From positions 1 to 31,032 of IMG/VR virus record IMGVR_UViG_3300035661_000242: a DNA stretch of 31,032 nt. One strand, 5' to 3'. The stretch is from a virus. The notes beneath the pieces were generated by a model. The model was not told the origin of the DNA and did no database searches. It saw only the letters and a list, made by a program, of their open reading frames with translations. The position numbers and the translations under genes are program-made. Below, piece by piece: positions 7,486 through 30,951 of this stretch (position 1 is its first letter; every line of letters starts with the position of its first letter).

Positions 7486-8928
7486 TTATACCTGTTCTAT
7501 AAATGATAAAACTTCATAAGCTATTTCTTCTATTCTTTCAATTGGTTCTTTATATTCGATAATTCCATTTTTATAATCATCATACGATAACCATTTATTA
7601 TAATAGATCGTAGAAATAAAGAAAAGAATTGGATCTTTATTAACAAGAAATTTATTAGAAACAAATTTATAACGATTAAAGATTTTGTTATATATCTTAG
7701 TACTTATTAATTTTTCAATAAAATCTTTTTTCATTATAAGTTTTTTATTTTTGAAATCACCAAATGCCATCAAATATTTAGCAAGAATATTTAGTTTATT
7801 TTTTTCTAAAACCTTTTTTAAAGCAATTAATAATACTTTAAATTCTTTTCTATTTAATTCATAATTATCATAAGTTCCGAAATATTTAGAGTAATATAAA
7901 AGAACTAAATTTACTTGCATTTTATTTAATTCGATTTCATCATAATATTCTAATTCTTCTTTAGATATATTTATATCAAACGTTTTCAAAAAATTCTTTA
8001 TTTCATTTATTTTATTAACTTCTTGAATACATTTCAAACCTTCATCTTCTCTACTTATTTCAATCTTTAATTTATCCATCGAAGTAATACCATCGTTTTC
8101 TTCATCTAATCTTGGATTAATCGGATTATATTCAATACTAATATTTCCTCTAAAAATAAATTTTATTTGATTTTGTAACGCAGCATGTATATAACTAATA
8201 GGATTCTTATCAACTTCTAATTTATACAAAATTAAAACTATAGTAGTATCATAAATATTAAGAGTTTCACTTTCAGGATCTTTTCCTATATTTTCTAAAT
8301 AACTCCATATCACTCTATCACTGAAAGAAGTACTTTTTACTCTTGATTCTACTAATTTGTATAATTTATTAGAAACTTTATGTTGATCATTTAATCCTAT
8401 TATTAATTTAAAAATATCAAGATAAAGTATTCTTAAATCTTTAAATTTATCCTTATGAATTGAATAAAAATCACTTATCAAAGGAATACAAAATTTCATT
8501 ATAAAACTAATTTTTTGAAGATCTTCACAATGTTCTTTTAAAAGTATTAATTGAGAATTAATTTTTTTATCGTTATTTTCTTTATGAATATAGTATTTTT
8601 CTATATATTCATTTACTATACTTTTAAAAGAAGGAAGTTCTAATAACTTTTTAATTTCTTGAGCAAATGTTATCGTATCATAAACACTTTCATCAAAGGT
8701 ATATTTAATCTTAATAGTATAAAATTGTTCAATGATATCAGCTATTTCTTCATAAGACCTTTCAAAAATATAAGTATACGTTTTTTTAATTAAATTAAAA
8801 ACATTGGTAAATCGTTGAGCACTTAAATCAAAATATTTTAATTGCTCATCAATTTCTAAATCTTCAATATCTAATTCAATAATTTTGCTGTTTAAAAGTT
8901 TCATTTTTAATTTTAGAGTTTCACCCAT
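7486..8928 (-). CDS. Unknown helical protein upstream of primase
   Basis: The protein has 480 residues, is mostly helical and has no membrane segment. The ATG at 8928 has an AGAGGGA site. One segment at about residues 243-262 (PISYIHAALQNQIKFIFRGN), followed by an acidic linker, has the look of the helix that ends region 2 of sigma factors (a pattern like SYL..AI.N.I..+LR). No clear region-4 helix-turn-helix is seen. The best description is an unknown replication- or transcription-linked protein, with the sigma-like idea kept as a weak hypothesis. Its stop is one base from the primase ATG. Confidence 0.7.
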   Translation of the reverse strand: MGETLKLKMKLLNSKIIELDIEDLEIDEQLKYFDLSAQRFTNVFNLIKKTYTYIFERSYEEIADIIEQFYTIKIKYTFDESVYDTITFAQEIKKLLELPSFKSIVNEYIEKYYIHKENNDKKINSQLILLKEHCEDLQKISFIMKFCIPLISDFYSIHKDKFKDLRILYLDIFKLIIGLNDQHKVSNKLYKLVESRVKSTSFSDRVIWSYLENIGKDPESETLNIYDTTIVLILYKLEVDKNPISYIHAALQNQIKFIFRGNISIEYNPINPRLDEENDGITSMDKLKIEISREDEGLKCIQEVNKINEIKNFLKTFDINISKEELEYYDEIELNKMQVNLVLLYYSKYFGTYDNYELNRKEFKVLLIALKKVLEKNKLNILAKYLMAFGDFKNKKLIMKKDFIEKLISTKIYNKIFNRYKFVSNKFLVNKDPILFFISTIYYNKWLSYDDYKNGIIEYKEPIERIEEIAYEVLSFIEQV

Positions 8929-8974: not shown

Positions 8975-9820
8975 TCATTTCTTTTTTTTACCTACTAATT
9001 TTTTCCTTGGTTTTAATTTCTTTATATTACTAATTTGTGCTGATATCTTTTTAGAAAATAACTTTCCTTTACCAGAAACAATTGTTTTAACTTTAGAAAT
9101 TTTTTCTAACATCTTAGTACGATTTACTTTTTTTTTGTGATCAGCTTCTCTTGATTGATATTCTTCTAATTTTTTATCAGTATGATCAATATTTTTTAAT
9201 ATTTCTTTTAATAAAATAGGTTGTTTTAATTTTTTAATATTACTTAATTTATAATATCCTTTATATATTAAATAATTACGTGCAAAAAAAAGATATTTTT
9301 CAAATCCTAAACGATTTGAAGGATTTCGAACAGAAGGAGCTGTTTCAAGCGCCATACTACTACATTTTTGTAATAAAAATTCTGGAATTAATTTATATTG
9401 ATTAGCTAAATAAGTATAAGAAAAATTAAATGATGGAGCATTACAAAAAAATCTTATATGATAATCTTTCAAACTTAATAAAAATTTCGTTTTTTTCTTT
9501 TCAGGTTTAATAAATTCAAATACTACATCATAAAATATTTTTATTTTACTTACTGTTACTTTTTCAGAAGGAATTTTTAAATGAATATAAATGGTTTCTA
9601 AATTATCATCGGCATAAATAAATATAGGAAAAATATTTTTGTGTTCTTTCATTAGTTTTAAGGTTCTCTTTTCTAAATTTTGTTTTATTACTTCTTGACT
9701 TGCAAAATATGCTGCTCTTTTTCCACCTGGATTATTAAAGAACTCGGCAAAAGTTATATCCTTATAAGGATTTTCAATTTCTTGTTTTTCTATATTTGTC
9801 TTTTTAACTTCTTTAGCCAC
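8975..9820 (-). CDS. Unknown basic protein with Lys-rich tail
   Basis: I start this gene at the GTG at 9820, because AAGGA lies eight bases upstream; the frame also allows a TTG at 9859 that has no ribosome binding site. The protein has 281 residues. Visible parts are an ITFAEFFNNPGGKRAAYFASQ helix near residue 23, alternating strands at 65-125, a segment FFCNAPSFNFSYTYLANQY, then RNPSNRLGFEKYLFFARNYL, and a C-terminal 60 residues full of Lys, ending in KKKK. The basic tail suggests nucleic-acid binding. The family is not recognised. It is the first gene after the chaperonin terminator and heads the replication module. Confidence 0.72.
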   Translation of the reverse strand: MAKEVKKTNIEKQEIENPYKDITFAEFFNNPGGKRAAYFASQEVIKQNLEKRTLKLMKEHKNIFPIFIYADDNLETIYIHLKIPSEKVTVSKIKIFYDVVFEFIKPEKKKTKFLLSLKDYHIRFFCNAPSFNFSYTYLANQYKLIPEFLLQKCSSMALETAPSVRNPSNRLGFEKYLFFARNYLIYKGYYKLSNIKKLKQPILLKEILKNIDHTDKKLEEYQSREADHKKKVNRTKMLEKISKVKTIVSGKGKLFSKKISAQISNIKKLKPRKKLVGKKKK

Positions 9821-9886
9821 GTTAGTATTCCTTATTATTAATATTTTATTATTCGTCAAATCAAATTTTATTATTAATAATAAAAA

Positions 9887-9913
9887 GGTATCAAGAATTA
9901 AATTCTTGATACC
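9887..9913 (-). terminator. Terminator of the baseplate-chaperonin operon
   Basis: The 13-base arms GGTATCAAGAATT and AATTCTTGATACC are perfect complements. On the minus strand the hairpin is followed by TTTTTATTATT. It begins ten bases after the chaperonin stop codon. Confidence 0.9.
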
Positions 9914-9922
9914 ATAAATATA

Positions 9923-11701
9923 TTAAGAAAGCATTTGATTACTTGTAACTAAAAGAGTAATAATTGAAAATACCGATTTTAAAATTTCAACGTCAGTTTC
10001 AACACTATTTATTACGTCAGTTTTATCAAACGCTTCATTTTCAAATTTGATAAGATTAAAAATATATTCTTTTTTAATACAATCATAAGCTATTTCTTTA
10101 GAAATTTCACAAATATTTCCTTTATTAGCTTCTGGGTTATAATAATTATCTAGTACTCTAATATATGCAAATAAAAAAGAATCTTTAATAATATTTAAAA
10201 GATTTGCTATTTGCTCTTCTTTTAATTTATGATGAGTAGATTTAGTATACAGATAATTTTTTAAATCTTCAAAATTTTTTGAAATATAATAAGGAATAAC
10301 TAAATTACCACCAAAAACATATCCATGATTAAAAGTAGAATGACAAGCCTGAACAGCATCTTCTACAAGATATTTTATATTTTTCTTTTCAAGTTCAGAT
10401 TGTCCTCCAACATATATGGTTGCCATATTTCCTTTTAAAGCATGGATACGACTTTCTAGCTTCCAAATTTCAGGAGTATGATCTACATGGTCAGCAATTT
10501 GTTTTATTTCATCTTTTTCTTTTTCCAATTTTTTAATATAGTTTTCAATCGTTTCTTTGTCTCCTCCTCCTTCAATAAAAAAACAATTTTTAGGAGTTGC
10601 TATAAATTTTTTACAAGTTCCTAAATTTTTTTCATCCCAATAATTATTTACAAATTCTTCTCCTTCCATCCTTTTTAATACTCTTGCTCCTAAAAATGTA
10701 GCAAGATCATAAAATTTATTTTTTGAAAGTTCTGTAGAAGTAGGAATTTCGATATATGCTATCATAGCATGTGGATTTTTTTCTTTATTTATTTTAAAGA
10801 AGTCAAATACAACAGGATCAATCTTAGGAGCTAAAAGAATAAAAGGAACTGGATCGGGAGCTTCAAGATTAATTTTCTTTTGTTGTAAACGATAACTTTG
10901 TACTCCATCTATGAGTATTGAAAGTGTAATTAAATCTTTTTGTATTATCGTTCCGTCAGACATTAAAAAAACTGGATTTTCATAAACTATTTGATTATTA
11001 TCCCTGTCTGTAACGAATAATGGATTTGAGAATCCATAATCCATTTTAAATCCATCTACGTATTCTACAGTAGTGAATTCAGATTTAGAAGTTTCTACGT
11101 TGATATTACCAGAAGTTCCTATTTTAGAATAAATTTCAGAGATCAAGTCTGACATTTTTTGATTATTATTAGTCGAAACAAGTGAAACTTTTTTAGCTAT
11201 ATTCACTATTTCCGTAACATCATTTACATCAACTTTTTTAGCAAGTTGTGAAATAGAATTAATTAATTTTTTTTCTAATAATTTTAAAAGTTCTTTTAAA
11301 ATATTAGCATTTATTTTATGAGTTTTTTGAAATTTATTTAAATAATAATAAAAACGTTCTGCTATAATAATAGCTGAAGTTGAACCATCCCCTACAGTCC
11401 TAACTAAATTACGACTAATCCTTATTATATTATCGAATATTCCTCTATATTCTACTTGCCCAAATTTTAAATTAGAAAGAATAGTATAACCATCCTTTGA
11501 AACAGAATGCTCACCGTATATATTTTGAATTATTGTATTAAACCCATAAGGTCCTAAAGAACTTCCTACAGCATTGGAAACGTAATTAAGCGTTTCTTTA
11601 ATTACTTTTTCTGTATCTTCTTTATTTACATAATTAGTTTTTGACATATCAAGAGTTCTTTTTTCATTGTTTTTTTTAAAGAACTTTTTTAACCAATTCA
11701 T
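9923..11701 (-). CDS. groL: GroEL-like chaperonin (phage-encoded)
   Basis: The 592-residue protein belongs to the group I chaperonins, which fold proteins in an ATP-driven ring. ATP-site elements are in order: SSLGPYGFN (48-55), SKDGYTIL with D70, and VGDGSTSAIIIAERF with D105. The late equatorial elements are VEDAVQACHSTFNHGYVFGG with D448 (equivalent of the ATPase Asp of GroEL) and FDKTDVINSVETDVEILKSV near the end. Identity to bacterial GroEL is clearly low and the apical region is divergent; the hydrophobic GGM tail is missing. A roughly 18-residue basic N-terminal extension precedes the usual start. A strong GGAGG lies before the ATG, which overlaps the preceding stop (TAATG). No GroES-like gene is in the window, so it either acts alone, as reported for the chaperonin of phage EL, or uses another co-chaperonin. 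Confidence 0.9.
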   Translation of the reverse strand: MNWLKKFFKKNNEKRTLDMSKTNYVNKEDTEKVIKETLNYVSNAVGSSLGPYGFNTIIQNIYGEHSVSKDGYTILSNLKFGQVEYRGIFDNIIRISRNLVRTVGDGSTSAIIIAERFYYYLNKFQKTHKINANILKELLKLLEKKLINSISQLAKKVDVNDVTEIVNIAKKVSLVSTNNNQKMSDLISEIYSKIGTSGNINVETSKSEFTTVEYVDGFKMDYGFSNPLFVTDRDNNQIVYENPVFLMSDGTIIQKDLITLSILIDGVQSYRLQQKKINLEAPDPVPFILLAPKIDPVVFDFFKINKEKNPHAMIAYIEIPTSTELSKNKFYDLATFLGARVLKRMEGEEFVNNYWDEKNLGTCKKFIATPKNCFFIEGGGDKETIENYIKKLEKEKDEIKQIADHVDHTPEIWKLESRIHALKGNMATIYVGGQSELEKKNIKYLVEDAVQACHSTFNHGYVFGGNLVIPYYISKNFEDLKNYLYTKSTHHKLKEEQIANLLNIIKDSFLFAYIRVLDNYYNPEANKGNICEISKEIAYDCIKKEYIFNLIKFENEAFDKTDVINSVETDVEILKSVFSIITLLVTSNQMLS

Positions 11702-11970
11702 TATTCAGCCTCCACATTTTGATTATTTTTCTTAACAGCAAAAAAATTCACACGTTCTTTACCATTAGAAGCTTTTTTCTGTGCTTCTTTATTTTTAACA
11801 ATTGCATCTAATAATGCATCTATAAAAGAACGTGGCATTTTCATAATTTCTTGATAAGAGAGCTTACCACCGAATACTTCTAATATAGAATAAATAAATT
11901 CAGCTTTTTCTTGCTCTAAGAGACTTAAGCTCTCTAATCCTTCCCTCTTAGAGCTAACTCGAAAAGCCAT
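11701..11970 (-). CDS. Small partner of the baseplate hub protein (gp51 position)
   Basis: This 89-residue frame begins inside the end of the gp26-like gene, overlapping it by 37 bases in the -1 frame. It contains LLEQEKAEFIYSILEVFGG (17-35) and a helix with MPRSFIDALLDAI, which resembles the short second product of tail-assembly gene pairs. The ATG at 11970 has only a weak ribosome binding site, so it may be made by translational coupling or by a frameshift from the upstream gene. No classic slippery heptamer is present in the 48-base window between the two stops. Its place matches gene 51 in the T4 order 25-26-51. The C-terminus ends in a charged tail, and its stop overlaps the chaperonin start. 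Confidence 0.72.
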   Translation of the reverse strand: MAFRVSSKREGLESLSLLEQEKAEFIYSILEVFGGKLSYQEIMKMPRSFIDALLDAIVKNKEAQKKASNGKERVNFFAVKKNNQNVEAE

Positions 11971-13076
11971 TCTTGTAGCTCAACAGGAACGTTTTCAATA
12001 GGATTACCACATTTTTGACAATTGAATTTAGGAATAGCATATCTAATTATATATTTATCTGCTAATTCTTCAATTTCTTTATATAAATCAAGACCTTCTT
12101 CAGTAGGAATTTGTTTTATTATATCTATAATAGCATCTTTTTTAGTTATTTTATCAAAAATAGGAGATTTACGTTCTAATGATTTTTCTTCATTTAACAC
12201 ATAAATACTTTTTGTGTAAGCTACACAAGAAGCTATTCTTTTCTTTATATTTTTATCAGAAGCTAATATTTTTAAAAAGCTTAAATGATCTCTTAAACTC
12301 ATTAATCCAACTTCAAAAATAATTCTTCCTTTTTTAATTGGAATTCTTTTTATTTTATATAATGGAGCTTCTTTTTGTATTTCTTTTGCTTCTTTTGTAT
12401 ATTCAAATAAATGTTTTCTAATTTCTGAATAAATTTCATCATCATTAATACAAATAAGACTTTCATTATCTTGATGAAAATTATTTTGATGTCCACATAT
12501 TTTTCCTTTTGATTTAGGATTTTCAGAATCTTTTAAAAAATTATAACATCTTACATTTACTTTTGTACCTTTTTTAATAGTTTGACAATATATTCCGTAT
12601 ACTAATGTATCTAAATCACCAAAAGAAACTTGATCTAAAAATTCATCAAAGGTTAGTTTACCTACAGAACTATCAACCATTAATCTATGTAATATTTTAT
12701 AAAGTGTTTCTTGAATGGTTACAGCATCTGCATCCGTCTCTGCTATGAGATCAAGTTCTTCTAAAGTAGCTCCTCTCATCCTTGCTAATATTCCAGATTG
12801 TAAACATGGAACTTGTTTAAAAGGAGTTAAGTCAGTTAAAGCTTTACTAATATTAGTAGAAATCTTTTCTACTTTTTCACTATTTATACATTCAATAGAT
12901 TCTAAATTAATCTTATTTAAAATAGAATCAAACTCTTTCAATGCTTCTTCCATCTCATCGTTTGTATTTTCAATTTCTTCGTTAATTTCTTCATTATTTT
13001 TTTCTTCAATAACTACATTGTCTTCGATTATTTCTTCTTCAAAATTAACCTGCTTTTTTTTAACATTTGTCTTCAT
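11934..13076 (-). CDS. 26: Baseplate hub / tail assembly protein, T4 gp26-like
   Basis: The protein has 380 residues. Residues 1-60 are an acidic, low-complexity lead. The core begins at about residue 97 with LARMRGATLEELDLI, then a helix (IQETLYKILHRLM), then LTFDEFLDQVSFGDLDTLVYGIY, the layout of the T4 baseplate family (an MR..T..E start, then a DLD..L block, then a cysteine-rich strand). Candidate zinc ligands are C177 and C194 and, at the end, C353 and C356 (CQKCGNP). It is longer than T4 gp26 (208 residues). The ATG at 13076 has a strong GAGGAG. Twenty-two bases separate it from the gp25-like gene upstream, and the order matches T4 genes 25 and 26. Function by family: assembly of the central hub of the baseplate. 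Confidence 0.72.
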   Translation of the reverse strand: MKTNVKKKQVNFEEEIIEDNVVIEEKNNEEINEEIENTNDEMEEALKEFDSILNKINLESIECINSEKVEKISTNISKALTDLTPFKQVPCLQSGILARMRGATLEELDLIAETDADAVTIQETLYKILHRLMVDSSVGKLTFDEFLDQVSFGDLDTLVYGIYCQTIKKGTKVNVRCYNFLKDSENPKSKGKICGHQNNFHQDNESLICINDDEIYSEIRKHLFEYTKEAKEIQKEAPLYKIKRIPIKKGRIIFEVGLMSLRDHLSFLKILASDKNIKKRIASCVAYTKSIYVLNEEKSLERKSPIFDKITKKDAIIDIIKQIPTEEGLDLYKEIEELADKYIIRYAIPKFNCQKCGNPIENVPVELQEWLFELALRGKD

Positions 13077-13098
13077 TTAAAAGCTCCTCGTTTAGTTA

Positions 13099-13566
13099 TT
13101 ATAAAATTATTTTTGTTTCTATCTTTTCTTCTTTAGTTTTATGAATTACATAAGTTACATTAGTAGGTTTTTTATTTACTTGAAGTTCTTTTAAAGGAAA
13201 TGGAAGTCCTCTATTAAGAACATCGTAATCTACTGCTAATTTAATATATAAAACATGTCCTCTTTTAGTTTTTTTAACACTAGCGTCTACTTCTATATTT
13301 GTAAAATTAACAAAAAACTTGTTACAAATTTCACGTATTTCTCCTGATATTTTTTCTATATCTTGTGCTTGTTCAAAATTATATCTTGTAACGTCTCCTG
13401 CAAATTCAGGAAAATTAGGATAACCTTCTCCTCTTTTATTTGTTAAAAGATTGAAAAAATGAATAGCTACTCCTTCATCTTCTGTGAGTTCAAAATGCTC
13501 TCCGAACGGAGAAAATTCAGGTACTATATCATACTTAAAGAAATTTATTTTATCTTCAAGTGCCAT
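13099..13566 (-). CDS. 25: Baseplate wedge protein, T4 gp25-like
   Basis: I start at the second ATG (13566), which leaves 155 residues and better spacing from AAAGAG than the ATG at 13572. The gp25/lysozyme-like family pattern is seen: LLTNKRGEGYPNFPEF (41-55), then a helix ending in ISGEIREICNKFF, and strands with FTNIEVDASVKK and HVLYIKLAVDY. In contractile tails this protein sits in the inner wedge that contacts the sheath. It is the first gene of the 25-26-51-chaperonin operon, with a candidate promoter in the divergent gap upstream. Confidence 0.82.
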   Translation of the reverse strand: MALEDKINFFKYDIVPEFSPFGEHFELTEDEGVAIHFFNLLTNKRGEGYPNFPEFAGDVTRYNFEQAQDIEKISGEIREICNKFFVNFTNIEVDASVKKTKRGHVLYIKLAVDYDVLNRGLPFPLKELQVNKKPTNVTYVIHKTKEEKIETKIIL

Positions 13567-13632
13567 AATCATCTCTTTATTATTTTTGATTAATTAATTA
13601 TTAAAGGAATTTTTTTTTAATAAAAAATATTA

Positions 13633-13683: not shown

Positions 13684-14439
13684 ATGGCAAGTATACCAAC
13701 TGAAACATGTCCATTTTGTCAAAAAAAATACGTTATTAAAAATGGCAGAGCAACTTTATACGAACATATGGAAAAAGTTCATTCAAAAGAATTAAATGGA
13801 ATAAGTCCAGCTCAATATTTATTTAACATAAGAAATAATAAAACCACTTTATATGGCAGTTGTATAATATGTAAAAAGCCTACTACTTGGAATCCTGTAA
13901 CGGAAAAATATAACAGACTTTGTTCTTTAGAATGCCAAAAAAAATACAGGGATATGTTTAAAAAAAGAATGTTAGATCGATACGGAAAAGTTCATCTTTT
14001 AGATAGTCCTGAACAACAAAAGAAAATGCTTAAATCTAGAAAAATTTCAGGAACTTATACTAGTCCTTCGGGATATAACCATACCTACACAGGAACATAC
14101 GAAAAAAATTTCTTAGAATTCTTAGATATCTTTATGAAATTTGATCCAGTAGACGTTCTTTCTCCAGCTCCTCAAACTTTTTATTATAAAGATGAAGAAG
14201 GAAAAAAAAGGTTTTATATCCCTGATTTTTATATTCCATCTTTAAATCTTTTTGTAGAAATCAAATCCTTTGAAAACAAGCACTATAGAGAAAGAGATAA
14301 ACATTTAGAAGAACTCAAAGCAGACATAGTCAAAAAAAATAAATACAATTTTGTTACAGTTCCAGATAACAAATTTATGATATTTGTTAATTATCTTATA
14401 GAACTCAAAAAAAAGAATAGTAAAACCGATACTGAATAG
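13684..14439 (+). CDS. PD-(D/E)XK nuclease with two zinc modules
   Basis: The protein has 251 residues. A C2H2-like finger is formed by C9, C12, H29 and H33. A second zinc ribbon uses C60, C63, C80 and C84, followed by a basic helix (FKKRMLDRYGKVHLL). The nuclease core comes last: E140 or E145 in TGTYEKNFLEFLD, then the metal-binding pair FYIPDFYIPSLNLFVEIKS, with D181, E192 and K194. The order of zinc modules before the nuclease suggests DNA binding plus cleavage. It could be a homing-type nuclease, as often found singly in phage genomes, or a recombination or packaging nuclease; the sequence does not decide. The ATG at 13684 has AAGGA. It is flanked by a symmetric promoter element and a bidirectional terminator, and it is alone on the plus strand amid minus-strand genes. 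Confidence 0.85.
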   Translation: MASIPTETCPFCQKKYVIKNGRATLYEHMEKVHSKELNGISPAQYLFNIRNNKTTLYGSCIICKKPTTWNPVTEKYNRLCSLECQKKYRDMFKKRMLDRYGKVHLLDSPEQQKKMLKSRKISGTYTSPSGYNHTYTGTYEKNFLEFLDIFMKFDPVDVLSPAPQTFYYKDEEGKKRFYIPDFYIPSLNLFVEIKSFENKHYRERDKHLEELKADIVKKNKYNFVTVPDNKFMIFVNYLIELKKKNSKTDTE

Positions 14440-21400: not shown

Positions 21401-24400
21401 TTAATCAATAATTATTCCTTTTTCTTTTCTTATAATAACAAATTCGTCTCTAAAATTTAAATTGGAATTTCTATCAATTTGATTTTCTATTTCTTGATAA
21501 TCTATAGGAAGGCTAAGATTTTTTTCTTGCATTTTTATAAGCATTCTTTCATATTCAGAACGATTATTATTAAAATAATCTCTAAATACATTCTTTCCTT
21601 TATTAGTAAAATTGTCTATCATTTTTATATTGCCTTCTATAGGATTATTAGAAACTAAGATAGAAGTTCCACTTATTATTTTTGTAGAATAAAATTTAAA
21701 AATATCAAATATTTGTAATAAAATATCTTTAATTTTATCTACTAAAAATGAACCTTGTATTATATCATCATACTTATTATTATTTATATAATCTCTTAAT
21801 AAATCTGTTAAATAAATATAACGTTTTAATTTAAATTCTTTTAATTTTTCTACATTATTTGCATAATCTATATTTTCTTCAGAATCAAATGTAGAAAATA
21901 AGAAATTAACATATTCTTGATAATTTTGTTTTGAACTTAAATAATCATAAATATTAATATTTTCTCCAAAAGGTTCATTCTCTATTACTCTTCTATATCT
22001 ATTCTTATATTCTTCTAAAAATACTCTATATTCAAAAATAGATTCAATTTTAAGACTTTCTTTTTCAATATTTCTTTTTTGTTCAAATAAATTTTCTAAC
22101 CAATCAAAAAATATTTTTATTTCATCAATTTCAAATAAATTTTCACTTAATTCAGGAATTTTGTCATATTTAACTACTGTTGTTTCATTATTATCTAATT
22201 TTTTTGGAAAATATGCAGTAGGTCTTAAATCATCTATAAATTCTTCATGCATATAATAATCATTTTGTCCAGGATTTAAAGTAAATATTAAATTATTTTT
22301 TAAATTTAAATCATGTCTATCATTATTTCCTTTAAAATAATGATTTAATAATACATTTATTCCTAATAAAATATCGATAAATTCTACAGGAGTTGGATTA
22401 TTTTCATTTTCTATAGAAACAAAATTTATTATTGAATCAAATATTGGAAATTGTACTGTTCTGTTAGGATATTTTAATTTTAATCTTATTAAAGTATCGA
22501 ATAAAAATGCAAATTCATAACACCTTTCAATATTATATATTTTATTATTTATTGAAATATATTTAGTTAATGCGTAGTTAAAATCTTGACTTTTTACTTC
22601 ATCTTCAGTTGCTTTCCAATATTTATCAGAAATAGTAATTCTTCCAAATGGAATAAAATCATAAAATTTTAAAGATTTAAAAATTTTTTCAATATTATTC
22701 TCAAATAAAGGAATTGAAACAAAATATAATGATTTTCCTTCATTATAATCTGGATTTAATTCTAATATTTTATTTATTAAACAAAGTTTTACAAATTCTT
22801 CATGTTCATAAGAAATAGAATCATAATCAATTACTGAAATTTGAAGTCTTCGTACAATTAATTTATAATAATTATAAATATTTATTTTTTCTTCAGTAAG
22901 AGAAATTTCTTGATTTTTAAAATCTAAAGAAACATATTCTAAAGCTTTATTTAACTTTTCAGAATTATTTTCTAAAAAGTTATTAATAAGAATATTAACT
23001 AAATTTTTCTTATATATATTAATTTCATCTAAATTAAAATAATCTTTTTGTATTTCTGTTAATTTAAAATCATTAAAAATATATTCTTTTTTATCTTCAA
23101 AAAGAAAACATTCTTCTGTATATTCTTTAGTTTTAATTAAAGCTATTATTTCTAATAATTTTATTAATATATCATTATCTATTGTTTCTTTTTCTTGAGG
23201 TGTTACAGTAAATGAATATATTCTTTCTCTAATATTAACTTGATTATCATTTTTTATTAAATTATATAATTTTTGTTTATATAAATCAACTAAAAATTCA
23301 ATATAATTTTTCTTATAATCATAATTAAGATTTTCTAATTCATTTTTTAAATCCTGTATATATTTACTATAAAAAAGATTTTTCATAATGTCTAATTTTA
23401 AAAATTCATTTTCTATTTCAGCTAAAGCAATTGAAATTTTAAGTTCATTATTATTTTTGTCTGTTAGTTTATCCAATGTTAAAGGATTTTCTATTGTTTT
23501 TCCTTTAATATTATAACTTCTAATAATAATATTTCCTTCAATAAAATCTTCTTTATATTCTTCATTAGGAATTAATTTAAATTTAAAATTAGTAGCTTTA
23601 GTTATAGTTAAAGATTCATCAAAATAATCAAAGTTTTCTAATGAAACAATAGGATCTATCGGAAGATCATTAGATTCAGATTTTGTATATATAATCGAAT
23701 AATATTTTTTATCTATTTTATCTGGAACTAAAGCCATTATATCAACAGATTCACTATTTGGATTTACATTTTTAGGACTAATTAAAACATCTGGAAGTTT
23801 TATTCTTAAATCTTTTTTGTATATATCGCTTATAGGAAGTTCTTCAATATTTTTTTTTATAAATGCATATATACTTGTAGTTTTTTCTATACGTAAAGGT
23901 TCATCAATAATATATTTTTCCGAATAAAAATTTTGGTTATTTTTAATTTGTATTTTATAATTTTCATCACTTTTATTAGAATTTTTAATATATTCATCAT
24001 TTAAAATATAATAAATATCATATTCTCCATAATTTAATGAATAATTATACATTTTTATTAATTGAGAACCTGTATATACATTATTTAACAAACTTGATGA
24101 ACTATCAGCAATTGGTTTATTATCTGGTAATATATAAAGATTTTCATCATCTAATGAAGGAAAAGGAATTTCTGAATCTTTAAAACCATCGTTACGTATC
24201 TGATAATCATTTTTAATTTCTAGAACTGTATAAAAATTCTTTTCGTGTTCTCCTTTTTCTATTAAATCAAAACAAAAATAATAGTTTTTTCCATTAATTA
24301 CTTGAAGAGGTTCATTAGGTTCATTTTTACTTTGTCCTACTATAAATTTATTTTCATCTATAAGAAACATATTTCCTGTTTTTTCAATTTTTTGAGAAAC

Positions 24401-27400
24401 AATAAAAGGAAATTTAACATCTATTGTATCATAAAAACCACGTAAAGTATTAGGAAAATGACTTCCAATAGGAATATAACAATTTGTAGCAGAATTCATA
24501 TCGTCAGGATCTTTATTGTATTTAATAGTATTTATAAAAGGATTAGGAAAACCAAGTATTTGATTATTATTTCTAATATTTTCAAAAGTTGGATTTATTG
24601 TTTTTTTATTTGGAGAATCTGAACTAGGAAAATTATAAATATTTGTTATAATACAATAATAAATATCATCATTATCAGTTCTTTTATCTTTATCAATTCT
24701 TAAATAATTATATCCATCAAATTCTTTTTTATCAATTAATATTTCAAATATGTCACTATCATTTATTTTTTTCTCAAGATCTAATGCTACATATTTAAAT
24801 TGATAAATTCCATATAATTTAGTTTCTAATTGATTCTCATCTTTATCCATGTGTATTTCTCTATTTACTATAATAGGACCTGAAACCTTAACCCATCCAT
24901 CTTTATCAGCATTTAATGATAAATTAGAAAAATTTTCATTAAGTGTTCTATTGATTTTATGTTTTTCATTTTCTGTATTTAATGGAATATTATTTAAATT
25001 TTCATCTTTAACTACTCTATAACATAAAACCATTTGAGAACCATCAAAAAGAGTTCCAGTTTTAATATCTTCAAATAAATATATTTTTTCAGTCGTTATA
25101 AAATTTACAGGAAGCGCTTTATGTCCACTCTCATGATTGGAATCAATTTCTACTTTTTTCAAAACATATTTTCTTTTAATTAATATTCTAGGATTTTCAC
25201 ATTTTGTTACGATTACAATTTTTTTACTTGTTATAATATCTGAAAGAAGTTTATCATTATTAGAAAAAATTCCATATTTTATTATATAAATTTTTTTATC
25301 TTCATTAAAAATTAATGGTTTTGTTTTATCATAATCTATAAAATCATGTTTTTTAACAATTTCATTTTTATCATTAAGTTCAAATAAAGAATATTTAATT
25401 TTTTTATTAATTCCATTATTAATAAATTCAAATTCTGCTTTAACTTCAGTATTAAAATAATATTTATCGCCTATTAATGTTGGGTAAATTAATTTATTAC
25501 TTGTTTTTTCTTTAAATATTAATTCAGGTGGAGATATTTTAGATTCTTTTTCAATTATGTTTATATATTTATCTATTTGATTACTAATTTGATAAGAAGA
25601 AAGTAAATTATAAGTTATAGCAGAAATGTGATATTTTCCAGGAGTTAGATTAATTGATTGAGTAAATAAAGTCCATTGACTATTACTATCAAAAAAAGTA
25701 TTATCAAAATTAAAAGAAATTAACTTTTCATTTCCTGTTTCTTCATCTATAGAATATAATCTATAAAAAATTCTTTCATAATCTATATATTGATCTGTAG
25801 AACTAAAATCTAAATTTAATTTAAATAGATTTGTAACTATTTCGTTATTAGTTGGAAGATTGATTACCGGAGGATTTATTTCAAATTGTTCTAATATAAA
25901 AAATCTATATGTATAAATTTTGTATGTTGTTATTTTATTATTTTTTCCATTTTCTATAGATTGTTCATCATTATAATTTTCTGTAGAAATAAAACATGTT
26001 ATTTGATAAAAATCTTTACCAGTAATTTTAAATTCATAAAAATCTTTTTGCTGCCCTGAAAGATCTTTAGGATGAATCTTAATATATTTTGAAAATTCTA
26101 TCTTAGATGGTAATAGATTCGTTCCTCCTCCACCAGTGTTAGGATTCGTTCCTCCTCCACCAGTGTTAGGATTCGTTCCTCCTCCACCAGTGTTAGGATT
26201 CGTTCCTCCTGTACCTGTTCCTCCAGTATTATCATAATCATTATTAGGAGGAATTACTGTATATTCTAATTTTACTGAAGGAGTTAATGATAATTTATCT
26301 ATTTTAAAATAAATATAATTATATTGGCTTACAGATGAATAATTTAATTTTATAGAACATTCATTTTCATAAATCTGATCATAATTTTGTTCATCAATAG
26401 GAATAATGTCATTATTAAAATGTATATATACATTTTCATTATTTTGATTATTAATAATTTTTGTATAACTATGTTTAATAAAAGGATATTCTTTATAATT
26501 AATTGAAAAATTACTTTTATTTTCATCAGAATCATCTATTCCATATTTTATTCCAGGTGTTACTCCATCTTTATTTGCATTTTGTTTTATTATATCTTGA
26601 TTTAATATGTTTTGTTTTTTATCATTTAATTCTTTTTCTTTTTTTTGCATTTCTTCTTTTATAACATCTTTGTATTTTTCTTTAATTCTTTCTAATAAAT
26701 TATTTTTTATAATTGTAAATTTTTCATCTTCTATTTTATAATTAATCTCCAAATTAGTACTTCTTTCACCATATTTATTAGCAGCTTTTATTTCAGCAGT
26801 TTGTTCATCTACTTTAATAAAATCTTCAAATTCATATTTTGAATATAATACTATAACTTCATTTATTTCTTGAGTTTCTTCTATTTTTTCTTTATAAGCT
26901 TCTATTAATTTATTATATAAATAATTTTTTATTTCTTCATATGGATAAGGAAAAAGTTCATCAGTAAAAATAGGTTCTAAACTTTTATCAATAGCATCTT
27001 TTAATGGTTTAATTTCAGTTCTTTGAAAATCTTTATAAATCATTAAATATTTTTCTACTAATTCATTGGAAATTCTTTCTATAGAACTTGTTAAATCTAT
27101 TTTTGATTGACTTTGTAAATATTCTTGATCTTGAAAAATATTAAAAGAAGAATTATTTAAATTATTTGAAATCATTTGAAGACGCATTTCAACAAAATAA
27201 TCTTTTAAAAATTCAGTAAAATTAAATTCTTTATTAGCATTTAATAAAAAAGCTAATGCTGTTTGTTCATTTAATCCTTCAAGAAAATTATTTAAAAATA
27301 AATTAAATTCATCATTATAAAATTTAGATAAATCATTTTTAATTACGTCTTCACTAAGAAGATTATTTTCATAAATATTTTCATAAATATTTTTTAATTC

Positions 27401-28768
27401 TTCAAATGTTTTTTCTTCTAATAATTTTATAATTCTTTCTTCAATTATTTTTTTTACTATTTTAATATATTCAGACAAATAAATGTTTTTATTAAATTTT
27501 TTAAAAGAAAGTAAAATTTCTTCTAATTCTTCTTGATTTTTTTCTTCTAATTCTTCAGGAGAATAAATTTTATATTTTTCATTTATTATCATTTTTGTTT
27601 CAGGATCTTTATAATAATCTGATTTATTTCTTTTAACTAATATATATTTTTTTATTTCTAATCTATCAATATCAAAAATATTTAATATATCTTGAAAAAC
27701 TTCATTAGTTCCTTTTTTTCTAAAAAATTTATCTATATTTTCAATTAATTTTAAAGTATAATCATCTGGAATTTCATCTAAGTTAAATATTCCATATGAA
27801 GCTAATAAATTTTTAATTTGTTTTCTATTATATTTTTCAAATTTAATAAAATCTTTTCCTAAAAATCTTTTTATAGAAAATAAAACTATCATAAATGTAA
27901 CAAAATCAAAATATCTTTCATAAGTATAACCAAAAAATCTATTATAAATATTTCTCATAAAATATTCTTTAGTACTTTCAACTTCTTTTAAAAAATTATT
28001 TAAAATTTTTTCAGGGAGTATAACATTATCACTATATTTATCTTTATTATAATAAAGCATTACAGAAAATTCTTTTTTTTCTCTACATCTTAAATAAAGT
28101 TCTGTTAATTCTTCTGTTGATATCATTATATTATATTTATTAATAAAAGTTTGTACAGTATCTATTAAATAATAATTTTCTTCTTTATAAAAATTTACTA
28201 TTTTTTTATTAATTAAAAATTCAATTGGATAAGCTTTTCTTTTTTCATTATCAATTAAAATTATATTTTTTGAATAACTTTTTGCTACTAGATTAGTGTA
28301 TACAAAAATTATTTCAAAATTTTCCCATAATAATCTTTTTATTTGTTCTTTTTGAATTTCTATTGGATATTCTTTATTTATAGTATTATTTTTTTTATTT
28401 AAAAAATCATTTAAAAGTAAATAATAATCTCTGTTATCTTTTACATAAATTTTTGTAACATCTATTAATTCACTATCAAAAAGTATATCTGTTTCAGAGT
28501 TAAAATCTTCACCTGAAAAAATTTTTAAATTTTTATATTCATTAAAAATAATTCCATTTTCTATTTGACTTTGAAAATATAATAATTTTTCTTCTTCAAA
28601 AGGTTTATATTCATTATTTAAACATTTAATAGCTTTTTGAGATTCTGTAGCCGAACGTAAAGTTTCATATGATTCTAGTAAATCATTATTTTTGAAAACA
28701 AATGTTTTAGATAATTCTATTAAAGCAGAAAAAAGTGACATTTCAGTATTAAAATTTAGTATATTCAT
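21401..28768 (-). CDS. Giant baseplate/tail structural protein, 2455 residues
   Basis: The ATG at 28768 has AAGGAG. The N-terminal 850 residues are mostly helical; residues 350-390 (FFRKKGTNEVFQDILNIFDI and following YILVKR) look like the helical block found in large phage baseplate proteins, but I cannot tie it to a named T4 gene. A repeated GGGGTNPNT linker follows at about 853-885. The middle third is a string of beta-sandwich domains: an Ig/FN3-like one at about 960-1070 (PPVINLPTNNEIV...), and a chitobiase-C-like one at about 1578-1640. The C-terminal 550 residues (from about 1900) are helical again, with the segment RRLQISVIDYDSISYEHEEF. Such a layout fits a baseplate or tail-fibre protein that reaches the cell surface. 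There is no signal peptide. It is the first gene of its operon and fills a quarter of the window. Confidence 0.82.
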   Translation of the reverse strand: MNILNFNTEMSLFSALIELSKTFVFKNNDLLESYETLRSATESQKAIKCLNNEYKPFEEEKLLYFQSQIENGIIFNEYKNLKIFSGEDFNSETDILFDSELIDVTKIYVKDNRDYYLLLNDFLNKKNNTINKEYPIEIQKEQIKRLLWENFEIIFVYTNLVAKSYSKNIILIDNEKRKAYPIEFLINKKIVNFYKEENYYLIDTVQTFINKYNIMISTEELTELYLRCREKKEFSVMLYYNKDKYSDNVILPEKILNNFLKEVESTKEYFMRNIYNRFFGYTYERYFDFVTFMIVLFSIKRFLGKDFIKFEKYNRKQIKNLLASYGIFNLDEIPDDYTLKLIENIDKFFRKKGTNEVFQDILNIFDIDRLEIKKYILVKRNKSDYYKDPETKMIINEKYKIYSPEELEEKNQEELEEILLSFKKFNKNIYLSEYIKIVKKIIEERIIKLLEEKTFEELKNIYENIYENNLLSEDVIKNDLSKFYNDEFNLFLNNFLEGLNEQTALAFLLNANKEFNFTEFLKDYFVEMRLQMISNNLNNSSFNIFQDQEYLQSQSKIDLTSSIERISNELVEKYLMIYKDFQRTEIKPLKDAIDKSLEPIFTDELFPYPYEEIKNYLYNKLIEAYKEKIEETQEINEVIVLYSKYEFEDFIKVDEQTAEIKAANKYGERSTNLEINYKIEDEKFTIIKNNLLERIKEKYKDVIKEEMQKKEKELNDKKQNILNQDIIKQNANKDGVTPGIKYGIDDSDENKSNFSINYKEYPFIKHSYTKIINNQNNENVYIHFNNDIIPIDEQNYDQIYENECSIKLNYSSVSQYNYIYFKIDKLSLTPSVKLEYTVIPPNNDYDNTGGTGTGGTNPNTGGGGTNPNTGGGGTNPNTGGGGTNLLPSKIEFSKYIKIHPKDLSGQQKDFYEFKITGKDFYQITCFISTENYNDEQSIENGKNNKITTYKIYTYRFFILEQFEINPPVINLPTNNEIVTNLFKLNLDFSSTDQYIDYERIFYRLYSIDEETGNEKLISFNFDNTFFDSNSQWTLFTQSINLTPGKYHISAITYNLLSSYQISNQIDKYINIIEKESKISPPELIFKEKTSNKLIYPTLIGDKYYFNTEVKAEFEFINNGINKKIKYSLFELNDKNEIVKKHDFIDYDKTKPLIFNEDKKIYIIKYGIFSNNDKLLSDIITSKKIVIVTKCENPRILIKRKYVLKKVEIDSNHESGHKALPVNFITTEKIYLFEDIKTGTLFDGSQMVLCYRVVKDENLNNIPLNTENEKHKINRTLNENFSNLSLNADKDGWVKVSGPIIVNREIHMDKDENQLETKLYGIYQFKYVALDLEKKINDSDIFEILIDKKEFDGYNYLRIDKDKRTDNDDIYYCIITNIYNFPSSDSPNKKTINPTFENIRNNNQILGFPNPFINTIKYNKDPDDMNSATNCYIPIGSHFPNTLRGFYDTIDVKFPFIVSQKIEKTGNMFLIDENKFIVGQSKNEPNEPLQVINGKNYYFCFDLIEKGEHEKNFYTVLEIKNDYQIRNDGFKDSEIPFPSLDDENLYILPDNKPIADSSSSLLNNVYTGSQLIKMYNYSLNYGEYDIYYILNDEYIKNSNKSDENYKIQIKNNQNFYSEKYIIDEPLRIEKTTSIYAFIKKNIEELPISDIYKKDLRIKLPDVLISPKNVNPNSESVDIMALVPDKIDKKYYSIIYTKSESNDLPIDPIVSLENFDYFDESLTITKATNFKFKLIPNEEYKEDFIEGNIIIRSYNIKGKTIENPLTLDKLTDKNNNELKISIALAEIENEFLKLDIMKNLFYSKYIQDLKNELENLNYDYKKNYIEFLVDLYKQKLYNLIKNDNQVNIRERIYSFTVTPQEKETIDNDILIKLLEIIALIKTKEYTEECFLFEDKKEYIFNDFKLTEIQKDYFNLDEINIYKKNLVNILINNFLENNSEKLNKALEYVSLDFKNQEISLTEEKINIYNYYKLIVRRLQISVIDYDSISYEHEEFVKLCLINKILELNPDYNEGKSLYFVSIPLFENNIEKIFKSLKFYDFIPFGRITISDKYWKATEDEVKSQDFNYALTKYISINNKIYNIERCYEFAFLFDTLIRLKLKYPNRTVQFPIFDSIINFVSIENENNPTPVEFIDILLGINVLLNHYFKGNNDRHDLNLKNNLIFTLNPGQNDYYMHEEFIDDLRPTAYFPKKLDNNETTVVKYDKIPELSENLFEIDEIKIFFDWLENLFEQKRNIEKESLKIESIFEYRVFLEEYKNRYRRVIENEPFGENINIYDYLSSKQNYQEYVNFLFSTFDSEENIDYANNVEKLKEFKLKRYIYLTDLLRDYINNNKYDDIIQGSFLVDKIKDILLQIFDIFKFYSTKIISGTSILVSNNPIEGNIKMIDNFTNKGKNVFRDYFNNNRSEYERMLIKMQEKNLSLPIDYQEIENQIDRNSNLNFRDEFVIIRKEKGIIID
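26116..26210 (-). repeat. 27-bp tandem repeat encoding a GGGGTNPNT linker
   Basis: Three identical 27-bp units start at 26116, 26143 and 26170 and a partial fourth starts at 26197. Each encodes nine residues of the type TNPNTGGGG. The repeat lies inside the giant structural gene at about residues 853-885 and is a flexible hinge between its helical head and beta domains. Confidence 0.95.
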
Positions 28769-28892: not shown

Positions 28893-29020
28893 CTAAGACT
28901 TCTGCAGACTTATTTTATATAAGTCCGAATGATTTGGTTAAAAATAACCTTGCTAAAGGATGCATTAATAAATTTAAGAGGCAACCTTTAGAAAATCAAA
29001 TTCATTTTTTATTTTCTTAG
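28874..29020 (+). pseudogene. Possible phage gene start cut by the IS607 insertion
   Basis: A plus-strand frame of 48 codons begins MKQLLISKTSADLF, with AAGGA nine bases before the ATG at 28874. The good ribosome binding site and divergent position relative to the giant gene suggest that a real phage gene started here, and that from about the tenth codon on the frame reads into the IS607 end and antisense to tnpB. The rest of such a gene would lie right of the window. It could equally be a chance frame. Confidence 0.3.
28893..28991 (-). ncRNA. Probable omega-RNA (TnpB guide RNA scaffold)
   Basis: TnpB nucleases use an RNA made from the 3' end of tnpB and the element end. Here this region folds well: CTAAAGG/CCTTTAG (28953-28959 with 28985-28991, overlapping the tnpB stop), GGTTA/TAACC with an AAAA loop (28936-28949), and GACTTAT/ATAAGTC (28907-28925). 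The guide would be the DNA just outside the element, that is, left of about 28893, next to the giant gene's leader. The scaffold location is established for the family; the exact ends here are inference. Confidence 0.45.
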
Positions 29021-30362
29021 GATTACATAATTGATATGTTTGTATGGATATTTTTTGTTTTAAATATTTTTGTAATATATTAATTGCTCCATTAATATCT
29101 GCATGAAATATTAAATTTTCTTTTTTATCTTTAAATAATGATACATTTAATTTACCATTTTGCATGAAACCTCTAACCCCACTTGGTTGATTCGGTTTAT
29201 GTTTAATATCAAATTTCCATACTTCGTCATTTATACATGATAATTTACTAGTATAACTTTCTTCTTGTTCAATATAAGTTATGCCTTCTTCATTTAACCT
29301 ATATTCTAAAATATGATAAATTAATTCATAAGGTAATAAATATGCTATTTTATTATTATTTTTACCAATATTAATATTGGATTTCATTTTTTTATTTCTT
29401 CCTATAACTAAAGTCCCGACATTATTTTTCTTTAAATATTTTATTATATAATTTACTATTTTATGAATTTCATTTTTATGAATTCTATTCCTTTGATTAT
29501 ATAAATAGTTTTTTAAATGTTTATTTTTCTTTTTATCTAATTTAGGAATTAGATTCATTAATTTTCTATTAATTCTTTTTATAGATGAAAAATCTATTAA
29601 AAGTGAATTTACATCTTGAACAAATAAGGTTATTAATGTATTAAAGCCTAAATCTATTGAAGCGTATTTATTATTTATATTATTATTTAATTTTATTTCT
29701 TTTTCAATTGAAGCGTATTTATTATTTATATTATTATTTAATTTTATTTCTTTTTCATATGTTATTATCATATAATATTCGTCATGTATAAAACCTAATG
29801 TTATATTTTTTATATTTTTATTTTTTAATAAATCTGGATTTACATAGTAACTAAAAAACATTTTACCTTTATCACTTAATTTACTAAATATATTAGCATA
29901 TATTAACCCATTTTTATATTTTACTAGATTTGAATTTATATCTATAGATCCTTTATAAATGTTTTTTAATTTTTTAGGTTTAAAATTAAAATAATTTATA
30001 TTACTATTATTATAATTTTTATGTGTTACTTGAATATTACTATTTAATTCTTTTACTATATCGACTATAATTTTATTTGAATAAATTTTAAATTCTAATA
30101 ATTGTTTATATAATTGTCTTAATTCATTATTACTATTTAATATTTCGATTAATCTTTTAGTTTCAGGTTTATATTTTACATCGTTAGCTAATAATTGTCT
30201 TACTATAGCAAAATTTAAAATTAATTTTTTATCTTCTTTTTCTAATTTATTATATATTAATAAAATTATATTTTTTAAATGTTGTTTAGTCTTAACTAGA
30301 GAGTGTATAAATTGTTTTTTATTTTTATCTTTTATCAAAATTCTTATATTTCTAATTGCCAT
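28974..30362 (-). CDS. tnpB: TnpB RNA-guided nuclease (zinc-finger-less type)
   Basis: The protein has 462 residues. RuvC catalytic residues are present: D237 in YASIDLGFN, E368 in IEQEESYTSK, and D422 in FHADINGAINIL. The usual CxxC...CxxC zinc finger between the second and third motifs is absent; instead there is one Cys (LSCINDE) and a PSGVRGFMQNGKLN stretch, a variant known in some TnpB groups. The N-terminal half has the normal WED/REC-type helical content. A perfect 51-bp tandem duplication adds 17 residues directly before the first RuvC motif. It overlaps tnpA by 11 bases (coupled start). It would cut DNA next to a guide match, helping the element persist; activity is uncertain because of the duplication. 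Confidence 0.88.
   Translation of the reverse strand: MAIRNIRILIKDKNKKQFIHSLVKTKQHLKNIILLIYNKLEKEDKKLILNFAIVRQLLANDVKYKPETKRLIEILNSNNELRQLYKQLLEFKIYSNKIIVDIVKELNSNIQVTHKNYNNSNINYFNFKPKKLKNIYKGSIDINSNLVKYKNGLIYANIFSKLSDKGKMFFSYYVNPDLLKNKNIKNITLGFIHDEYYMIITYEKEIKLNNNINNKYASIEKEIKLNNNINNKYASIDLGFNTLITLFVQDVNSLLIDFSSIKRINRKLMNLIPKLDKKKNKHLKNYLYNQRNRIHKNEIHKIVNYIIKYLKKNNVGTLVIGRNKKMKSNINIGKNNNKIAYLLPYELIYHILEYRLNEEGITYIEQEESYTSKLSCINDEVWKFDIKHKPNQPSGVRGFMQNGKLNVSLFKDKKENLIFHADINGAINILQKYLKQKISIQTYQLCNPKKIKNEFDFLKVAS
29656..29757 (-). repeat. Perfect 51-bp tandem duplication inside tnpB
   Basis: Bases 29656-29706 and 29707-29757 are identical. The duplication is in frame and gives EKEIKLNNNINNKYASI twice, at about residues 203-219 and 220-236, immediately before the RuvC-I Asp. 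Absence of any difference implies a very recent event. Confidence 0.97.
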
Positions 30363-30951
30363 TTTTTATTGCATCCTTAATTTTATTTTTATAATTTCTT
30401 AAACCATATAATCTCGCAGAAAATACATGAATAATTGTCATTAAATCAGTTATTAATTCATCTTCTGGAGAGGTTTTTTCTAAATTTATTATAGTTAATT
30501 TTACATTATATTTTTCAAATAAAAATTCCAATAATTCAAATCCAAATCTAACTAATCTATCTTTATATGTTATAATAATTTCTTCAATTTCATTATTTAA
30601 TACCATTTCTAACATTTTTAAAAAACCTTTACGTCTATAATTTATTCCAGAACCAATATCTTTTATATACTCATCTATTATTTTTCCAGAGTTTATTGCA
30701 TAAGTTTGTATATATTCTAGTTGATTTTCTAATTCTTTCTTTTGAGAATTTGATGATACTCTATAATATGCTATAGTTTTTCTATTTCTTTCTTTTTCAA
30801 TATTTAAATATTTTAAAACATCTTTTTTAAAATAATATTTTCTACCATTTTTCCTATAGGGGATTAATTGACCTCTTTCTTCTAATCTAAATAAAGTTCT
30901 TTGGCTAATTTTAAGAAATTCACAGACTTCTTTAGACTTCATTATTTCCAT
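30352..30951 (-). CDS. tnpA: IS607-family serine recombinase TnpA
   Basis: The 199-residue protein has a MerR-like helix-turn-helix at residues 4-50 (SKEVCEFLKISQRTLFRLEERG, with the wing RKNGRKYYF) and a resolvase-type catalytic domain after it. The nucleophile is S66 in AYYRVSSNSQ; D131, R132 and R135 lie in TYKDRLVRFGFELLE, which is the conserved DRL.RFG motif. This HTH-first order is typical of IS607 transposases and differs from ordinary resolvases. The ATG at 30951 has AAAGGAG. It catalyses excision and insertion through a circular form, with no target-site duplication. It appears intact. Confidence 0.95.
   Translation of the reverse strand: MEIMKSKEVCEFLKISQRTLFRLEERGQLIPYRKNGRKYYFKKDVLKYLNIEKERNRKTIAYYRVSSNSQKKELENQLEYIQTYAINSGKIIDEYIKDIGSGINYRRKGFLKMLEMVLNNEIEEIIITYKDRLVRFGFELLEFLFEKYNVKLTIINLEKTSPEDELITDLMTIIHVFSARLYGLRNYKNKIKDAIKNGN

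Follow-up and report, generated by a model that had tools for sequence, protein, structure and literature searches.

The window analysed here is a viral contig of 31,032 bases, part of a genome (IMG/VR record IMGVR_UViG_3300035661_000242), and our subject is a run of genes on its minus strand in which a gp25-like gene, a gp26-like gene and a small open reading frame (ORF) lead into the gene for a GroEL-like chaperonin. An earlier note on this DNA had described the run as an operon of gp25-like, gp26-like, 'small partner' and chaperonin genes. Three of these four stand as described; the small partner is probably no gene of its own and instead encodes, in the -1 frame, a C-terminal domain for the gp26-like protein. 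The features concerned are as follows.

13099..13572, minus strand: gp25-like baseplate wedge or sheath initiator protein, 157 residues, recognised by its family profile.
11934..13076, minus strand: gp26-like protein, 380 residues, predicted short form (TAC-N) of a tail or hub assembly chaperone (tail assembly chaperone, TAC), by phrog_18873 (1e-41) and AlphaFold fold.
11961..11966, minus strand: proposed -1 ribosomal frameshift site CTT_TTC, 0-frame codons Leu-Phe, 30 nucleotides (nt) before the 0-frame stop.
11701..11970, minus strand: ORF of 89 residues, probable C-terminal (T) domain of the TAC in the -1 frame, matched by a profile of other -1 extensions (2.1e-14).
11709..11713, minus strand: Shine-Dalgarno sequence GGAGG of the chaperonin, within the upstream ORF, 7 nt before the ATG.
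9923..11701, minus strand: GroEL-like chaperonin, 592 residues, AR9 gp228 group, by Pfam, PHROG and PDB matches and invariant alignment columns.

The 89-residue ORF shares 37 nt with the 3' end of the gp26-like gene, in the -1 frame, and an open -1 frame likewise runs from within the last 31-73 nt of the gp26-like gene through the whole small ORF in AR9, BpSp, Madawaska, SA1, Machias and phiR1-37. In most of these six a conserved core, L-D-L-F-x-G-K-x-S, has no usable start codon ahead of it and is truncated by the annotated start of the small ORF. AR9 g230 (L003:8308-8610) is annotated from a start 3' of the shift site, with its -1 frame open 73 nt back into g231, and AR9 gp231 run into the -1 frame reads EEMLFSSSSSGGLK. 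Across viral contigs and the window, the -1 frame is open at 42 of 43 distinct junctions, compared with 65 of 536 other ORFs of the same contigs under a loose criterion. The shift site takes the form CTT_TTY (Leu-Phe), its Leu codon being CTT in 41 of 42 cases when CTT supplies 27% of the Leu codons in these genes (enrichment log10 P = -22, from 33 clusters below 60% identity), and 38 of the 42 lack any start codon farther than 15 codons upstream of the conserved T core. The profile of the other -1 extensions found the 89-residue ORF as its sole match in the window; searched alone, that protein gave no matches. The extension is predicted to form three helices. The gp26-like gene and the small ORF are thus probably one tail assembly chaperone gene, read two ways by -1 frameshifting.

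Under this reading, most ribosomes would end at the gp26-like stop and yield TAC-N, while a minority would slip by -1 at CTT_TTY, some 30 nt short of it, and go on through a helical T domain of ~85 residues to give the longer form, TAC-NC; both the efficiency of the shift and the two isoforms are what we infer. The two forms would be made in the manner of G/GT in lambda, where T4 instead uses the paralogous genes 26 and 51, and from lambda and T4 both would be expected to bind tape-measure or hub and tube proteins while the tail is assembled and then to leave the virion.

The relationship to T4 begins with the identity of the two upstream proteins. The family profile of the gp25-like protein reaches Pvc9 (3.2e-6), T4 gp25 (3.8e-5) and Afp9, and Pfam GPW_gp25 is found in five of eight family members, the window member not among them; searched alone the window sequence has no matches, so that the assignment made in the earlier note holds at the level of the family profile, with the single sequence below threshold. 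The gp26-like call is borne out by profile and by an AlphaFold model (pLDDT 86, pTM 0.80) that resembles in fold both T4-type 'baseplate hub assembly' proteins and proteins from other jumbo phages; a fold search of the model against the PDB gave no significant match. T4 gp26 and gp51, listed as hub assembly chaperones (PMC3004832), are paralogues (hhalign 99.4%), and gp51 carries a C-terminal extension. Aligned with the T4-family fusion, the AR9-clade fusion matches over 282 columns (probability 95%, E 2.7e-8) with the T domain in register; hhalign profiles built from 6-7 sequences did not link usably to gp26 and were weak against T4 gp26 alone; larger ones gave the link.

Gene 26 itself has a -1 extension in cyanophages, a KVP40-type phage, Kuttervirus GG32, Rhizobium phage RL2RES and Aeromonas phage Asswx_1, with shift sites T_TTT_TTC, T_TTT_TTG or ATT_TTC, and this extension corresponds to the C-terminus of gp51. 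In the cyanophages, GG32 and Asswx_1 it is open for 61-82 codons (L018:2645-2869, L023:2624-2872, L020:2432-2617, L022:2381-2569), and no annotation covers it in GG32 or Asswx_1. The annotated cyanophage 'gp51' is a 31-residue product starting at an internal ATG; it has been described as being without ~200 N-terminal residues (PMC3037559), an absence that would be explained if this 'gp51' were the gp26 extension. Phage Adele offers a further example of TAC-N and TAC-NC with poly-T -1 sites (PMC12846349).

Set beside lambda G/GT and T4-like gp26/gp51, the AR9-type locus shares a short form with a -1 extension at its 3' end, a poly-T shift site, a fold homologous to T4 gp26-type proteins and a small helical C-terminal domain. 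It differs in an N domain of 380-500 residues, in a shift site of CTT_TTY rather than T_TTT_TTC, and in adjoining a chaperonin gene, where the others have the tape measure or hub genes as neighbours. For T4-like phages such chaperones were reportedly identified in 2022 (Vladimirov et al., PMID 34826709). As in T4, with its gene orders 26-25 and 51-27-28-29, gp25 and gp26 are adjacent, whereas in T4 the two forms come from separate, paralogous genes and the locus is without a chaperonin. In lambda-type phages the TAC gene usually sits just before the one for the tape measure, which is not the arrangement of T4 gene 26; since the present locus does not precede a tape measure gene, we place it with the T4 branch rather than among lambda-type loci.

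The chaperonin was correctly recognised as GroEL-like: it matches Pfam Cpn60_TCP1 (E=1.8e-26), phrog_5725 'chaperonin groEL' (9.3e-104) and solved PDB chaperonins (down to 1.4e-38), with homology to Cpn60 over its full length. The ATPase motifs KDG (D70), GDGST (D105) and VEDA (D448), whose aspartates are the equivalents of GroEL D52, D87 and D398, fall in invariant columns of an alignment of eight phage chaperonins. By homology it belongs to the already known AR9 gp228 group of phage chaperonins (with EL gp146 and OBP gp246), being 31-33% identical to the AR9 and BpSp proteins over the full length, keeping the ATPase residues and standing in the same gene neighbourhood as in AR9. It is nevertheless diverged, with 37% identity to its best relative (L024), an N-terminal extension of ~16 residues, a long branch in the chaperonin tree and, unlike AR9 gp228, a start codon that overlaps the ORF before it. 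The closest named relatives by chaperonin are Bacillus phage BpSp (33%), AR9/PBS1 (31%), Listeria phage LPJP1, staphylococcal jumbo phages of the S6 kind and Yersinia phage phiR1-37; the window also encodes split multisubunit RNA polymerase genes, an AR9-like primase and an AR9-like polymerase subunit. Its source is a diverged jumbo phage of the AR9/PBS1 supergroup.

AR9 gp228 forms a single heptameric ring, of published structure; supplied with ATP, it refolds denatured endolysin and needs no co-chaperonin to do so (PMC9598537). By extension from AR9, the window chaperonin would also be a single ring that works without one. The earlier remark that phage chaperonins are usually discussed with capsid or lysis proteins is right insofar as those of AR9 and EL have been assayed on endolysin. 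As that note had also said, no Cpn10 gene is present in the window, a 31-kb genome fragment; nor was one found in the six complete genomes of AR9-type relatives searched or in 48 further contigs. Clear GroES genes occur in contigs of ~300 kb from two relatives (L026 and L045), drawn from different metagenomes, in a common neighbourhood far from the chaperonin; each encodes a GroES-like protein of 100 residues (L104:1520-1822 in the L026 contig, L105:1323-1625 in the L045 contig) alongside a chaperonin of the AR9-type clade. A review places HSP10 only in other jumbo phages, with HSP10 and HSP60 in different phage sets (PMC7824862).

Around the TAC and chaperonin genes lie further conserved features.

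13684..14439, plus strand: Zn-finger/endonuclease gene, AR9 gp233-like, divergent, opening the conserved block (phrog_15137, 9.6e-79).
9887..9913, minus strand: intrinsic terminator directly 3' of the chaperonin.
8975..9859, minus strand: AR9 gp227-like protein, a conserved downstream neighbour, structural in phiR1-37 (phrog_20045).
7486..8928, minus strand: AR9 gp226-like non-virion RNA polymerase (nvRNAP) subunit, a conserved downstream neighbour (phrog_25005, 2e-31).

The terminator, which the earlier note had placed correctly, runs from 9913 to 9887 as a 12-bp stem followed by TTTTT, and is one of two in the region, against 0.8 expected by shuffling. The order endonuclease, gp25, gp26-like, small ORFs, chaperonin, gp227 and nvRNAP gp226 is kept in AR9, BpSp, Madawaska, SA1, Machias and phiR1-37, with primase gp225 following gp226 in several of them. 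Linkage of the chaperonin to gp25 and gp26 in the same order and strand is therefore kept in relatives, from AR9 to staphylococcal and Yersinia jumbo phages, and holds at 51 of 80 viral-contig loci (52 of 81 when the window is counted). Mapped onto a 65-row tree of the chaperonins, linkage requires five changes, against 16.6 with shuffled labels; because the changes are few and some unlinked rows are nested among linked ones, it is likely ancestral and was lost at least twice. In two such nested loci, L063 and L059, gp25 and gp26 are not nearby, and gp226, gp227 and primase genes lie upstream on the opposite strand.

Chaperonins beside unrelated genes do exist, in EL, Vibrio and crAss-like phages, and 29 of the 81 loci have no gp25 or gp26 nearby; gp227 and gp226 are still present in 20 of those 29. 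Overall gp227 is kept at 65 of 81 loci and gp226 at 62, more often than gp25 and gp26, so the hub is not the specific partner that the earlier note had proposed: the linkage is real, and it is block synteny rather than a hub-specific bond. The chaperonin follows the proposed TAC locus in an old block of endonuclease, gp25, TAC, chaperonin, gp227, RNA polymerase subunit and primase. Phage LPJP1 seemed to break the linkage but does not: it has gp25- and gp26-like genes at the opposite end of its record, which fits if the record is read as circular. That record ends inside the TAC locus, where the T domain is missing, and an IS607-type element lies between its g229 homologue and chaperonin (L011, 219000-223580); a group I intron suspected by eye in this insertion found no Rfam match. 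The window has its own IS607-type element at 28974-30951, composed of a MerR-type helix-turn-helix serine resolvase and TnpB.

AR9 g228 is a late gene (PMC5312081), and late timing and neighbourhood fit the folding of late virion proteins, without pointing to a specific client, tail or other. One possibility, which we regard as doubtful, is that it serves other late or transcription proteins (virion or non-virion RNA polymerase subunits, gp227) or a nucleus-like compartment, and that the gp26 neighbourhood is incidental synteny. The persistence of gp227 and gp226 beside the chaperonin even where gp26 is missing would suit it, as would the association of HSP60 with phages that have multisubunit RNA polymerase and tubulin, where it is proposed to act on a nucleus-like compartment (PMC7824862); it sits poorly with the continuous expression of AR9 gp226 when the chaperonin is late (PMC5312081), and with the EL chaperonin lying among other genes.

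The proposal of the earlier note, that the chaperonin is translationally coupled to the hub genes and that hub or tail proteins are its clients, now appears unlikely. The shared strand and the TAATG in which the chaperonin start overlaps the stop of the 89-residue ORF, as that note had observed, speak for it, as do the gp25-gp26-chaperonin order, its probable ancestry and the late expression of both chaperonin and virion genes in AR9. The overlap, however, occurs at one of 41 loci measured, that of the window, so the coupling is not conserved: at the other 40 a gap of 5-577 nt separates the last upstream frame from the chaperonin, a gene of the AR9 g229 family intervenes in 24 of the 41, and phiR1-37 has an annotated terminator between the chaperonin and the upstream genes. 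The window chaperonin carries a GGAGG of its own, and 232 nt separate its ATG from the gp26-like stop upstream, so that only ribosomes in the -1 frame could reinitiate at TAATG. The broader downstream linkage and the unlinked relatives also count against the proposal. The overlap is a local feature of the window phage, and functional coupling of chaperonin to hub is not established. The AR9 late-promoter motif AACA-N6-TW is absent from the 100 nt before the gp25, gp26 and chaperonin genes of the window, and the 2455-residue protein (21401-28768) put forward as a client has no Pfam or PHROG match. We think it quite improbable that across the AR9 supergroup the chaperonin and the frameshifted TAC form a single assembly-folding unit, with TAC-NC, tape measure or hub proteins as main clients and, in the window phage, TAATG tying chaperonin output to the rare frameshifted form.

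Several points weigh against the frameshifted TAC and its setting as we read them. Conservation is greater for the genes downstream of the chaperonin than for gp26, which makes position a weaker guide to any client, and no identified tape measure gene adjoins the TAC locus, the next gene being the chaperonin or a member of the AR9 g229 family. One linked locus, L054:4313-5734, has no open -1 extension; its +1 frame is open for ~240 nt downstream, with unrelated sequence. Neither a conserved upstream Shine-Dalgarno sequence nor a downstream hairpin was found as a frameshift stimulator, CTT_TTY permits good re-pairing of the A-site tRNA only, and frameshifting in all these phages is read from sequence, not protein. 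Lastly, the T ORF of the window has an in-frame ATG at 11970, within the overlap, as few loci do, so that separate initiation is possible there. That the 89-residue ORF is an ordinary separate gene, as this ATG and others near the junction in V09 and RL2RES might suggest, is very improbable given that most relatives have no start codon before the conserved core, that the CTT codon is nearly invariant and that the window ATG has no good Shine-Dalgarno sequence. We therefore hold with good confidence that this is a late morphogenesis segment of the AR9/PBS1 supergroup with an AR9-gp228-type chaperonin, in which the two genes before the chaperonin make up one frameshifted TAC locus and the TAATG is local.

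The chaperonin is not new: the direct finding is a diverged member added to a known group, with evidence of an old neighbourhood. A frameshifted tail assembly chaperone is likewise of a known kind, and is new for AR9/PBS1-type phages within the literature searched, where no report of one was found and outside which most subscription journals lie. AR9 gp231 and gp230, both 'hypothetical' and the latter annotated with a truncating start, can be reassigned: together they are probably a frameshifted tail assembly chaperone. The puzzlingly short cyanophage 'gp51' can be read likewise. With AR9 growing on Bacillus subtilis, an easy host, both the frameshifting and the clients of the chaperonin become testable.

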